Positions 6,361-22,449 of a stretch of DNA of 23,658 nucleotides are shown here, piece by piece. A program made the position numbers and the translations under genes. This DNA comes from an uncultured Bacteriovorax sp. (lineage in GTDB: Bacteria > Bdellovibrionota > Bacteriovoracia > Bacteriovoracales > Bacteriovoracaceae), in assembly GCA_946482295.1 (NCBI GenBank), contig CAMLRB010000027.1, positions 1 to 23,658 on the forward strand, written 5' to 3'. The notes beneath the pieces are model-generated. The model saw only the letters and a program-made list of their open reading frames with translations. It was not told the origin of the DNA and did not search any database. Position 1 is the first letter of the stretch. Each line of letters starts with the position of its first letter.

Positions 6361-7716
6361 TTAATTTCTTAAAACAATTTCCCCTTCACGGATGCGGTCC
6401 ATGGCCTGAACAATCAGGCGGGCCGCCTCTTGAGGGGCGTGAAAGCCATAAGAGTTTTCAGCCTCAATAAAGTCGATCAGGAACTGAGCTTCTCTTTGAT
6501 AATTGAGAGCTTTATCCAGACGATCTTTGGCCATTTTGTTCTTTTGTGCCACCTTTATGTTATCCATAAAAGTCATGAGAGCATCCATCGCCTTCTTTCT
6601 CATTTCGAGGTGACGCTCTTGAATAGTCTGCACTCTTTCTAACAAATCTTTTTCCGGAGTATGGTGGCAAGTCTGACATGATTTATTCACGTTCAGCATA
6701 GGTGATCGAACATGGTGATTAGTAATTTTCATGGCCCCTACGCGCTCATATGGCATGTGGCAGTCCGTACATGAAACACCCGCTTTAGCGTGAATCCCTT
6801 GCGAGTACATTTCAAACTCAGGGTGCTGAGCTTTAAGAACTGGTGCTTGCGTTTCTGCGTGGACCCAGTCTTTATGTTTGTTTTCTTGGTAGTAACTGAG
6901 GATTTGATCGCCTTTGATCCCTTTAGACCATGGGAACGTCAACGTTTTCTCAGGTCCTTTGAAGAAGTATTCAACGTGGCATTGAGCACACACAAATGTT
7001 CTCATCTCTTGTTTAGTTGCTTGTTTATTAACATCGTAGTGTTGCACACCTTGGGATTTTTTATATTCTGCAATCCCAATCATGAAAGCTGGCTTTGTTA
7101 CACGCAACTCCATTGTTGAAGGAGTGTGACAATCAATACAGCTCACTGGATGTTTTACATTCGAACGTGCATCTTTATAAGGAAGTTTATTAAGAGCATG
7201 AAAGCCAGCGAAGATATCGCCATTTCCAGCTTTCATCATGGGAACATATGTTGAAGCATGACAGTTGATACAGGCCCCTGGTTGTTTTGAGAATTCCTGC
7301 CGTTTTGTATATTCTTGATCCAGAAGCATGTAAGCGTGTCCTCGCTCTTCTCTAAAATCATGAGAGAAAGCGTAACCATTCCACATTCTTTTCAACTGTG
7401 GATCTTCTTCAATTCTTGATTGCGAAACAACGCTGCGTGGATCGGCCTGATCTGGTGTTCTTGGAGTCGCTTCCGATCCACCGTAACGCGTGCGTTGTTG
7501 ATCGACTGTACGTTTATAAGAATCATATTGCTGTGGAAAATTTTTTCCCCATACTGCTGGATCGTCTTCCATTTCTCCAATTTCAACTACTCGGAAGAAA
7601 GTGTGCTTTGATTCCGTTTTTTTCTCCATAATGTTAACGAGCAAGAGACAGATTCCCACTCCAACAACTGCAGAGAGAGTCATGAGGGTAATGAGTTTTC
7701 CTTTTGATTTCATCAT
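6361..7716 (-). CDS. nrfA: Cytochrome c nitrite reductase, ammonia-forming, catalytic subunit (CXXCH variant)
   Basis: This pentahaem enzyme reduces nitrite to ammonium with six electrons in the periplasm. The 451 residues begin with an uncleaved-looking membrane anchor (about 8-29). Haem sites: CINCH 149-153, CIDCH 193-197, CAQCH 243-247, CTDCH 316-320, CQTCH 347-351. Likely active-site residues by family comparison are R125 (RGH), Y250 ('CAQCHVEYFF') and H298 ('LKAQHPEFE'); 'ITNHHVRSP' near 331-339 is also typical. The first, catalytic haem has CXXCH rather than the classical CXXCK, so histidine, not lysine, would be its proximal ligand. This variant exists in a known minority of NrfA proteins and needs no dedicated haem lyase; none is seen here. 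It lies 19 bases after nrfH and is cotranscribed. A second ATG directly follows the first. Confidence 0.96.
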   Translation of the reverse strand: MMKSKGKLITLMTLSAVVGVGICLLLVNIMEKKTESKHTFFRVVEIGEMEDDPAVWGKNFPQQYDSYKRTVDQQRTRYGGSEATPRTPDQADPRSVVSQSRIEEDPQLKRMWNGYAFSHDFREERGHAYMLLDQEYTKRQEFSKQPGACINCHASTYVPMMKAGNGDIFAGFHALNKLPYKDARSNVKHPVSCIDCHTPSTMELRVTKPAFMIGIAEYKKSQGVQHYDVNKQATKQEMRTFVCAQCHVEYFFKGPEKTLTFPWSKGIKGDQILSYYQENKHKDWVHAETQAPVLKAQHPEFEMYSQGIHAKAGVSCTDCHMPYERVGAMKITNHHVRSPMLNVNKSCQTCHHTPEKDLLERVQTIQERHLEMRKKAMDALMTFMDNIKVAQKNKMAKDRLDKALNYQREAQFLIDFIEAENSYGFHAPQEAARLIVQAMDRIREGEIVLRN

Positions 7717-7735
7717 AGCAACCTACTTATCCTTC

Positions 7736-8191
7736 TTAATGGGCATGGCCAACGGAGCGATGACAAGAAACGCATGAACGCCCTTCATCCATTCCTTGTT
7801 GATGAATTGTCGTATTCATTAAATTGAAGTGACAATTCATACACGCTTTCATTGTTATATTAAAATTGTGAGATCTAATTTGAAGAGGATCTTTATAGTT
7901 ACCCGTTGTGAATTTTAGCGAGTGCCAAAATCCATTGTCTGCTTTGTTAATATACTTCAACACAAAGTTTTTTGGAGTGTGACAAGAGTTACAAGTTGCC
8001 ACGGCATGATGGCTACCGCGACTCCAGCTCTCATATTGATCGCGCATCAAATGACAATTCATGCAGGCCTTAGGATCGTCGGAAAAATAAGAATATCCCT
8101 TAGCATAGATGAAGGTATAAGACCCAAATCCAATGATGAGTCCAATTAACGAAGCTGCGAGTATAAACAGTAAAGGTATTTTCTTATTCAT
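7736..8191 (-). CDS. nrfH: Cytochrome c nitrite reductase small subunit, membrane quinol dehydrogenase
   Basis: NrfH is the NapC/NrfH-family tetrahaem protein that takes electrons from menaquinol and passes them to NrfA. The 151 residues have one N-terminal membrane helix (about 5-30) and four CXXCH sites: CMNCH near 43, CNSCH near 68, CMNCH near 117 and CVSCH near 140. The first is followed by 'LM', giving the CXXCHXM arrangement in which Met ligates haem 1 in NrfH. The usual family size and the position directly before nrfA make the call firm. Upstream (8192-8239) I see no Shine-Dalgarno sequence and no convincing FNR-type TTGAT-N4-ATCAA site. TTGGCA is present but the matching -10 is poor, so regulation cannot be read. 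Confidence 0.96.
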   Translation of the reverse strand: MNKKIPLLFILAASLIGLIIGFGSYTFIYAKGYSYFSDDPKACMNCHLMRDQYESWSRGSHHAVATCNSCHTPKNFVLKYINKADNGFWHSLKFTTGNYKDPLQIRSHNFNITMKACMNCHFNLMNTTIHQQGMDEGRSCVSCHRSVGHAH

Positions 8192-20113: not shown

Positions 20114-21460
20114 ATGTATAAAAAAAATATTTTCACCCGAAGAAAAATGATTCTTCTTTGTTTGGCAACGTCATTACTGGGAATTCTTTCTTTTTTCATT
20201 GCTAAACTCCTGCTCCTCTCTATCGCTTTTTTTACAAATTTATTTTGGTTTCAACGACTATCCATTCAGTCTGTAGAACTCGTAAATATGAATGTGCATG
20301 TCACTCATCTCATCATTCCCATTCTTGGTGGATTGATAGTGGGCCTCATGGCCAAATATGGAAGTCAGGCGATACGTGGTCACGGTATCCCTGAGGTCAT
20401 GGAAAATATTCTGACGAAAGAAAGTAAAATTCCTCGCCGTATGACTTTGTTAAAACCACTCTCCGCCGCTATTGCCATTGGTTCAGGAGGTCCATTCGGA
20501 GCTGAAGGTCCCATCATTGCAACCGGAAGTGCTGTTGGGGCGTGGCTTGGAAGACATACAAACTTTAATGAGTATGAGAGAAAAATTCTTCTTTCAGCTG
20601 GTGCAGCCGCTGGAATGACATCCATATTCGGCACTCCCCTCTCAGCTGTCTTTATTACAATTGAACTTTTACTTTTTGAATTTAGTGCTAAATCTTTTAT
20701 ACCTGTTTTGATTGCTGTCTCGACAGCATTTTCGATTCGCCTTGCAACTGGACACACTGGACCTGAATTTCCCATTGGGGATTTCACTGAGCATGTTAGT
20801 GGATGGAATACGCTTTTTTATTTTTTTGCCGGTGCCCTTGCGGGATTGTTCGCTTGTTTTTTTACAAAGATCGTTTTTTATGTCGAAGATACGTTTGAAA
20901 AACTTTCGCTGCACTGGATGTGGTGGCCCGCAATTGGTGGATTCTTTGTCGGCGTGATCGCACTCATTGAGCCTCGTGTTTTAGGTGTCGGCTATTCCAA
21001 TATCACAAACGCACTTCAAGGAAAATTACTTCTCATTCCTGCTATCACTCTCCTCGTTTGGAAATTTCTTGCTTGGGCCATTTCTCTTGGCTCTGGAACA
21101 TCGGGAGGAACTCTCGCTCCACTCCTCACTTTCGGTAGTTCACTGGGAGTTATTATTAGCCTCATTGGTCAAGCAGTCTTTCCTGAAATCGGAATTGTCA
21201 CTCAAGTCACCGCACTCGTTTGCATGTCCTCAATGTTTTCAGGAGCAACTCGCGCTGTTCTCACTTCAACTGTTTTTGCTCTTGAAGTAACAGGGGCACA
21301 CTTTGGAGTGGCCCCTCTATTAATCGGAAACTGTGCGGCCTACCTCATCTCCTCATTCTTTTTGAAAGAAACTATTCTTACAGAAAAAATCGTAAGACGA
21401 GGCATTCATGTACCGGATGATTATTTTGCAACAAAAACGGAATCCACTACTTCGCCGTGA
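20114..21460 (+). CDS. ClC-family chloride channel/transporter
   Basis: This 448-residue integral membrane protein has the three ClC selectivity motifs: GHGIP (89-93), GAEGP (129-133, gating glutamate E131) and '[16 protein letters not shown]' (330-345). There are no C-terminal CBS domains. Compared from memory with E. coli ClC-ec1, three positions differ: the Ser of GSGIP is His90; the second proton glutamate ('IIEE') appears as 'TIEL', with Leu185 at that position; and the Tyr of the chloride gate appears lost near residue 419 ('FLKETIL'). This makes strict 2:1 chloride/proton exchange uncertain. The GHGIPEVM form occurs in a known group of bacterial ClC proteins. It overlaps the convergent gdx gene by 14 bases. 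Confidence 0.94.
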
Positions 21461-21767
21461 CCTTTAGTCCGATAATCGAAATGAGCAAAAGAGCGAGGAA
21501 AAAAAGTTTCAGTGGTGAAGCCGATTCTTGAAAAAGAAAAATTCCACACACCGCTGCTCCCAGAGCTCCGATGCCTACCCACACGCCATAGGCCGTTCCA
21601 ATCGGCAACGTTTGAGTTGCACGTGCGAGCAAAAACATACTGAGAGCAAGTGTAACGAGAGTAAATAGACTGGGAATGAGTTTGGTGAAACCGTCTGTGT
21701 ATTTGAGGCCGATGGCCCAACAGACTTCAAATAATCCAGCGACTACTAACATAATCCAAGATGACAT
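21447..21767 (-). CDS. gdx: SMR-family guanidinium exporter (Gdx/SugE type)
   Basis: This 106-residue protein has the four helices of small multidrug resistance proteins. The sequence '[16 protein letters not shown]' (12-27, with the essential E14), '[20 protein letters not shown]' (59-78) and '[20 protein letters not shown]' closely follows the Gdx (formerly SugE) subtype rather than QacE/EmrE. Gdx proteins exchange guanidinium for protons across the inner membrane as antiparallel dimers. AGGAG (21774-21778) lies 6 bases before the ATG. A guanidine-III riboswitch directly upstream supports the substrate assignment independently. The 3' end overlaps the ClC gene by 14 bases. Confidence 0.95.
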
Positions 21768-21773
21768 AGAACA

Positions 21774-21788
21774 CTCCTTTTAAAAGAG
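21774..21788 (-). promoter_or_regulatory. Hairpin over the gdx ribosome site (riboswitch expression platform)
   Basis: In the minus-strand mRNA CUCUU (21788-21784) can pair with AGGAG (21778-21774) across a 5-base loop, with one G-U pair. The 5' arm begins with the last base of the aptamer, so ligand folding would compete with this hairpin and free the ribosome site. Inferred from base pairing only. Confidence 0.55.
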
Positions 21789-21828
21789 CGTCGTCTTGTC
21801 TTAACCGGGTACGGCGCATCTCGTCCGG
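21788..21828 (-). ncRNA. Guanidine-III (ykkC-III) riboswitch
   Basis: The minus-strand sequence reads CCGGACGAG, AT, GCGCCGTACCCGG, TTAA, GACAAGACG, ACGC over 41 bases. It matches my recollection of the Thermobifida fusca guanidine-III aptamer at all but about four positions, including the invariant CCGGACGAG, CGCCGUACCCGG and GACAAGACG blocks. CCGG/CCGG forms the outer helix. GCGCCGU pairs with ACGACGC but with one C-A mismatch where the Thermobifida sequence has C-G. The 3' end runs into a hairpin on the gdx ribosome site, so guanidine binding should raise translation of the exporter. The gene immediately downstream is a Gdx-type exporter, the classic target. Confidence 0.92.
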
Positions 21829-21837
21829 GATAATAGC

Positions 21838-21865
21838 ATTTTAATTATTTTTTTTGCTCTGTCAT
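21838..21865 (-). promoter_or_regulatory. Promoter of the riboswitch-gdx transcript
   Basis: On the minus strand ATGACA (21860-21865) and TAAAAT (21838-21843) are 16 bases apart. The predicted start, near 21831, falls 2-3 bases before the aptamer, giving a leader that is almost entirely riboswitch. Confidence 0.55.
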
Positions 21866-21912
21866 CATTTGGTCTATGTCTCCAATTGATAACTTTCTGT
21901 ACTTTTTAGAAT

Positions 21913-22449
21913 CTAATAAACTTTTTTGAATTCAAGATTAATACGGTTATCGCCTTGGGAAAACCAGATCTGATCATGGTCGATGTTCACATCAAAGTTC
22001 ATTCCTCGCTCAACAAAAGATTCAATATCCTGCCCGTCGCTAACCGTTAAATGAGTGATGTTCAAGTGATCAAAGCGCTGAACGGTGTTTTCAATCGATT
22101 TAAACCAGTTCTCGCTTGTTTGTCCTTGATAAGTATAGATCGAAACCTCTTTGGCCTTAGAACACATCTGACGGATTCTACGCTCGTCTGGGTGGCCAAG
22201 ATCAATCCAGTGGTCAATCGAGCCGTCGTAATTAATTTTCCACATATCTGGCTCTTCATCAGAACTCAGGCCTTTGGTAAACTCAATCCCCTCCTGAGAA
22301 AGGAGAACAAAGGCGACAAGCCGATACATCATTCGCAAATCGGTCTCAGAAGGATGTCGAGCAATCGTTAAATTGTAATCTTCATAGTGATGAATATTAA
22401 GATTAGCTACAGCTAATTTGACTTTGAATATAGTAGATTTAAGTGCCAT
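21913..22449 (-). CDS. yaeQ: YaeQ family protein
   Basis: This 178-residue protein starts from the ATG at 22447-22449, which gives the family N-terminus MALKSTIFKVKLAVANLNIH; an ORF extension 16 codons upstream is not family sequence. Diagnostic blocks are 'LTIARHPSETDLRMMYRLVA', 'FTKGLSSDEEPDMWKINYDG' and 'WIDLGHPDERRIRQMCSKAK'. YaeQ adopts a fold related to PD-(D/E)XK nucleases, with H-P-S-E-T and D-E-P-D-X-W as conserved patches, but its reaction is unknown; an older link to RfaH-type transcription was not sustained. GGAA lies too close to the ATG to be a good ribosome site. The TAGACT element 8 bases upstream is consistent with a leaderless mRNA. Confidence 0.93.
   Translation of the reverse strand: MALKSTIFKVKLAVANLNIHHYEDYNLTIARHPSETDLRMMYRLVAFVLLSQEGIEFTKGLSSDEEPDMWKINYDGSIDHWIDLGHPDERRIRQMCSKAKEVSIYTYQGQTSENWFKSIENTVQRFDHLNITHLTVSDGQDIESFVERGMNFDVNIDHDQIWFSQGDNRINLEFKKVY

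Follow-up and report, generated by a model that had tools for sequence, protein, structure and literature searches.

The paper that described guanidine-III (ykkC-III) riboswitches in 2010 lists Actinobacteria and delta-Proteobacteria as their sources and names emrE and speB as the associated genes (PMC2864571), and the review PMC12186494 gives 237 representatives, mainly from Actinobacteria. A translational ON switch has been proposed for the class (PMC5696562; review PMC12186494). Here, we compare with the described members, above all with the Thermobifida fusca structure (5NWQ; Rfam RF01763), a locus found in a stretch of 23,658 nucleotides (the window) from an uncultured Bacteriovorax sp. 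of the phylum Bdellovibrionota. All positions refer to the window unless a locus identifier is given.

A scan of the window against 4227 Rfam families (cmscan) returned a single match above a gathering score, RF01763 (Guanidine-III), at 21853-21785 on the minus strand. The match reached 58.5 bits against a cut-off of 36, with an E value of 5.8e-10, and the alignment covered the full length of the model (positions 1 to 67 of 67). The guanidine-III aptamer claimed by an earlier note on this DNA, which had proposed this Infernal/Rfam check on the minus strand, is thus confirmed, and the 41-base segment that the note had drawn at 21788-21828 (minus strand) proved exact in its coordinates, with all three of the named sequence blocks present. 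No tRNA was detected in the window by ARAGORN. Taken whole, the leader (21840-21750) shows no unusual stability (z, -1.01), as 33 of 200 shuffles folded equally well or better, so that stability was rejected as support and the case for a riboswitch rests on the covariance model and not on folding energy.

Residue numbering, helices, and binding pocket were taken from PMC5696562. On that scale, the 41-nt core (21788-21828, minus strand) keeps the pocket residues C6, G7, and G17 and has the pairing potential of the published H-type pseudoknot, with P1 joining residues 1-4 to 21-24 and P2 joining 12-18 to 35-41. Both features are shared with the T. fusca structure, as is the placement of the aptamer just before the ribosome binding site. 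Altogether, 23 of the 26 residues numbered in PMC5696562 are kept; the exceptions are positions 10, 28, and 38, where published guanidine-III has G and the window has A, and the A at position 38 creates in P2 the one departure from the published pairing, a C15 x A38 mismatch. The distance from the end of the aptamer to the ribosome binding site also differs, being given as 16 nt for T. fusca (PMC5696562), whereas the GGAG of the window starts 10 nt after the core. The combination of A10, C15, and A38 was shared by 46 of 54 distinct non-Bdellovibrionota leaders and by 12 of 31 Bdellovibrionota leaders (85 leaders, left from 102 motif matches after the removal of 6 without a start by pattern and 11 duplicates).

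When 28 distinct aptamers (25 from Bdellovibrionota and 3 others) were aligned, 90.8% of the P1/P2 cells were paired, and sliding the register by 1 to 3 columns left 23 to 42% paired. Changes on both sides of a pair amounted to 26 cells versus 9.8 in shuffles, none of 500 shuffles being as high, with the reservation that kinship among the aptamers inflates the shuffle control and leaves the slid control unaffected. Within P2, two positions were often unpaired, 15-38 in 16 of the 28 aptamers and 14-39 in 10 of them. By the covariance model and the retained pairing, therefore, this is a real, canonical guanidine-III (ykkC-III) riboswitch before gdx in a Bdellovibrionota genome. A known kind of riboswitch, the expected gene, and a lineage broadly on record make it an ordinary member of its family.

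The gene that follows, gdx (21447-21767, minus strand), is an open frame of 106 amino acids, assigned by family models and structure comparison to the sugE-type SMR guanidinium exporters. Its ATG (21767-21765) sits 20 nt downstream of the aptamer core, so that a guanidine-related gene carries the element in its 5' leader, and the Shine-Dalgarno (SD) sequence GGAG (21774-21777, minus strand) lies 6 nt before the ATG. Upstream, a sigma-70-like promoter may occupy 21838-21865 on the same strand (-35 ATGACA at 21865-21860, 16-nt spacer, -10 TAAAAT at 21843-21838). The promoter-like pair has 10 of 12 matches; 21380-21960 holds two such sites, where shuffles average 0.8, and we therefore regard the promoter as no more than plausible. 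Its use would set the transcription start near 21831 and would leave outside the RNA most of the hairpin at the 5' end of the Rfam match (21853-21829), which overlaps the promoter-like -10. The earlier note had placed promoter, aptamer, expression platform, and exporter within about 100 bases; the spacing, aptamer, SD, and ATG stand, and the promoter remains the weak element of that layout. To the guanidine-III examples known, the locus adds a compact and clean one from a phylum of predatory bacteria.

At the protein level, the product matched the SMR family PF00893 with 98.9 bits and passed the curated SugE model NF008512 (136.4 bits versus a cut-off of 126), while scoring below the cut-off of each of the remaining 20 SMR models listed. 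The nearest solved structure was the SMR protein 6wk5, with 129.5 bits, compared with 41.1 bits for the best EmrE. We take PDB 6wk5 to be Gdx-Clo. Its residues E13, W16, S42, and W62 align with Glu14, Trp17, Ser43, and Trp63 of the window protein; these key residues are shared, and we saw nothing notable that differs. According to PMC7695847, W16 is conserved among Gdx proteins and is replaced by Gly or Ala in the Qac subtype; the window protein has Trp at this position (W17). From its sequence, then, the gene directly downstream of the aptamer is a Gdx/SugE-type SMR exporter, the subtype to which it had been assigned beforehand, and it presumably transports guanidinium. The gene is convergent with a ClC gene, and their 3' ends overlap by 14 bp (21447-21460).

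As to function, we are highly confident that the element is a translational ON switch for gdx that works by SD release. When guanidine is absent, aptamer nucleotides 38-41 and the next five bases would pair with AAGGAGUGU and bury the SD. Guanidinium, held by G7 and G17 over C6, would stabilise the pseudoknot and its triplex; nucleotides 35-41 would then be engaged in P2, which would bar the SD-burying hairpin. With the SD freed, ribosomes would load, and the Gdx made would export guanidinium. The predicted OFF-state hairpin lies at 21771-21791 (minus strand), where a 9-nt arm (21791-21783) that holds aptamer nucleotides 38-41 pairs with 21779-21771, which holds the GGAG. This hairpin appears with 9 bp in the predicted leader folds and alone is worth -7.8 to -7.9 kcal/mol, compared with -4.1 kcal/mol for P2 without pseudoknot and ligand, so that P1, the triplex, and guanidine must pay for the pseudoknot, as a switch needs.

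Folding programs cannot hold a pseudoknot, and the bound state was imitated by making the aptamer bases unavailable; on this footing, opening the GGAG of the window costs 7.8 kcal/mol when the leader is free and 1.8 kcal/mol with the aptamer bases unavailable. When P2 alone was forced in the window leader, two G of the SD stayed paired (unpaired probability of 0.07), and when the rest of the aptamer was blocked as well, the SD became partly free (0.2 to 0.4 unpaired per base). Along similar lines, the mean opening cost in 29 of the 31 Bdellovibrionota leaders (two without an SD-like word were dropped) was 5.9 free and 2.2 with the aptamer unavailable. The spacer-shuffle control gave a mean of 2.4 free and no gain, and 27 of the 29 leaders exceeded their own shuffle means. 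A computed gain in SD opening was obtained for 25 of the 29, the four without it being L011, L081, L082, and the gdx copy of L103.

Pairing between the aptamer tail and the SD was also compared with swaps between species in 27 of the 31 Bdellovibrionota leaders (four were too short), where it averaged -10.4 versus -8.9 and none of 300 swaps was as good; the leader sequences are related, and these tests therefore overstate independence. Outside Bdellovibrionota, the swap test was negative, with 156 of 300 swaps as good among 51 of the 54 leaders, mostly from Streptomyces. In the computed folds, the aptamer pairing and the SD pairing are thus mutually exclusive, an arrangement that recurs in relatives and that is short and can be probed by mutation. 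From this modelling, release of the SD is probably how the element works in this phylum, and protection of the mRNA may be a second route compatible with it; ligand binding and regulation in cells we infer. At L092 (1518 onwards), a guanidine-III element precedes a gdx whose ATG comes 10 nt after the aptamer; a simple pattern detected no SD-like word, and the SD-release model set out above therefore does not hold at this locus.

The strongest alternative puts that second route first: the chief effect of the compact 5' pseudoknot would be to shield the mRNA from scanning by RNase E, and SD sequestration would be secondary. This route is reported for guanidine-III by the review PMC12186494, citing Richards and Belasco 2021, it is compatible with an ON switch, and the predicted transcription start would leave 3 nt ahead of the aptamer. 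That start site is a prediction, however, and the window has a strong hairpin burying the SD, which is found again in relatives, so that we regard RNase E protection as unlikely, if far from negligible, as the main effect. Control of transcription, through an intrinsic terminator in competition with the aptamer, is described for guanidine-I and -IV by the review PMC12186494 but appears very improbable here, because no terminator-like site was found across 21380-21960 and the hairpin at 21791-21771 has no following U run and holds the SD in its 3' arm; a terminator was rejected accordingly. A relic or chance match without function is scarcely credible given the E value, the retained pocket residues, the open gdx frame, and the fact that 39 of 368 Bdellovibrionota genomes carry the element ahead of gdx. 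The reading that we retain is SD release in response to guanidine.

Those 368 Bdellovibrionota genomes were scanned with RF01763, which exceeded its cut-off in 29 and reached an E value of 0.001 in 35. For prevalence, this count was supplemented by a model built from 29 aptamers, which matched in 42 of the 368, both scans having been run with tightened filters, at which weak matches are lost. A gdx lay directly downstream in 39 of the 42, or about 1 in 10 of the 368, many of these 39 being in the training set of the model and thus detected by construction. The three left out of the 39 (G340, G249, and G333) had no gdx in the stretches of ca. 0.9 to 1 kb covered. The G340 match (L182:127-168; E value, 1.1e-6), with no gdx in 0.9 kb, may be due to chance or may be a real element before another gene.

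Among named organisms, the element exceeded the Rfam cut-off in 9 of the 19 loci scanned, including Asticcacaulis and Myxococcus, and the Bdellovibrio bacteriovorus genome L005 gave 49.1 bits with RF01763. At the time of the 2010 description, Bdellovibrio was classed in the delta-Proteobacteria. The suggestion that the window would extend the known range of the class is accordingly weak, as delta-Proteobacteria are in the 2010 list (PMC2864571) and the Rfam model is already over its cut-off in the 29 genomes counted above. A literature search with poor coverage of subscription journals found nothing that treats riboswitch, Bdellovibrio, and guanidine jointly. Two of the six motif matches dropped for want of a start (L046 and L109) look like real elements; at L190, in the same place as L109, gdx stands behind a canonical-type aptamer and the expected start reads ATT, which may be a rare start, a sequence error, or decay. 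L014, labelled Comamonas, has a leader and a Gdx that closely resemble the Myxococcus ones (L015 and L019), possibly through a mislabelled assembly or transfer.

Ten of the 39 gdx-linked genomes were not over the Rfam cut-off (G005, G006, G011, G012, G049, G086, G131, G176, G185, and G368). Nine of them have U at position 3, as in a variant form of the aptamer, and in the tenth, G368, a run of N interrupts a canonical body. The Rfam cut-off thus under-calls this Bdellovibrionota variant, which we found at L001, L002, L017, L020, L103, L107, L108, and L110, with related forms at L011, L106, L147, L181, and L188. Like the window aptamer, the variant keeps C6, G7, and G17 and precedes gdx; it differs from the canonical form of the window by a U3-A22 pair in P1 and, in P2, by A13-U40 and a mismatch of A14 with C39. 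Of the 31 distinct leaders from Bdellovibrionota, 12 are the variant or close to it, 7 are of a Bdellovibrio type (A15 x A38), and 12 are canonical like the window, and none of the 54 leaders from outside the phylum was of the variant type. Among the side findings, this variant and the two genomes in which it also stands before a LysE-type exporter gene are the most novel.

In these two genomes, L020 (Bdellovibrionaceae MAG ACE_BDE3) and G303, a variant riboswitch is followed by a lysE-type gene and an FMN_bind_2 gene, and then by a second variant riboswitch and gdx, the two-aptamer clusters spanning L020:2556-4315 and L103:169-1911. The lysE copy of L103 has C in place of U at position 18, is below the Rfam cut-off, and has no SD-like word. 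Both LysE proteins, those of L020 and G303, fail to reach the curated cut-offs of the models for lysine and arginine exporters. One could imagine from this a Bdellovibrionota guanidine-III lineage of its own, its triplex remodelled (A13-U40, A14 x C39) and its members in part overlooked by Rfam, that in two genomes would control a LysE/ArgO-type exporter and FMN_bind_2 beside the riboswitch-gdx unit, so that a second guanidino compound would be exported and the ligand preference possibly shifted; we consider this improbable. LysE as a general guanidine-III target was rejected, as L020 and G303 were the only positives among 30 LysE loci scanned for the motif (of 53 matches listed). Applied to 20 of the 30, Rfam agreed with the motif scan, with the lysE copy of G303 below the cut-off. 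No link between LysE or a lysine exporter and a guanidine riboswitch appeared in the titles and abstract openings among the literature matches listed, many of which probably concern the verb "lyse."

Regarding the lineage of the window, the three best named loci for Gdx among the matches listed were Bdellovibrionota MAGs, with 78, 74, and 73% identity. Alphaproteobacterial Gdx proteins among the matches listed (Asticcacaulis L004 and Caedibacter L016) reach 76%, and Gdx alone therefore does not decide the lineage. The neighbouring ClC and NrfA reach up to 75% and 81% identity, respectively, in the 368 Bdellovibrionota genomes, the only phylum searched with them. Together, the three similarities support the guess of a Bdellovibrionota origin made before the source of the DNA was given. 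Horizontal transfer or an exchange of aptamer type was considered with 39 Gdx proteins (29 from Bdellovibrionota and 10 from others), but their tree, in which 6 of 36 inner branches were starred, left the window unplaced; the five rows nearest to it carry the variant aptamer, whereas the window carries the canonical one.

A conserved gdx neighbourhood was rejected by a tblastn search with Gdx, ClC, YaeQ, the kinase, and the last window gene over the 80 loci listed, where, besides Gdx, matches were limited to the kinase, at L010 and L012; gene order around gdx is therefore not conserved in those stretches. The window NrfA scores below curated cut-offs; its gene and an adjacent one for an nrfH-type cytochrome (together 6361-8191, minus strand) make up an ammonia-forming nitrite reductase pair.
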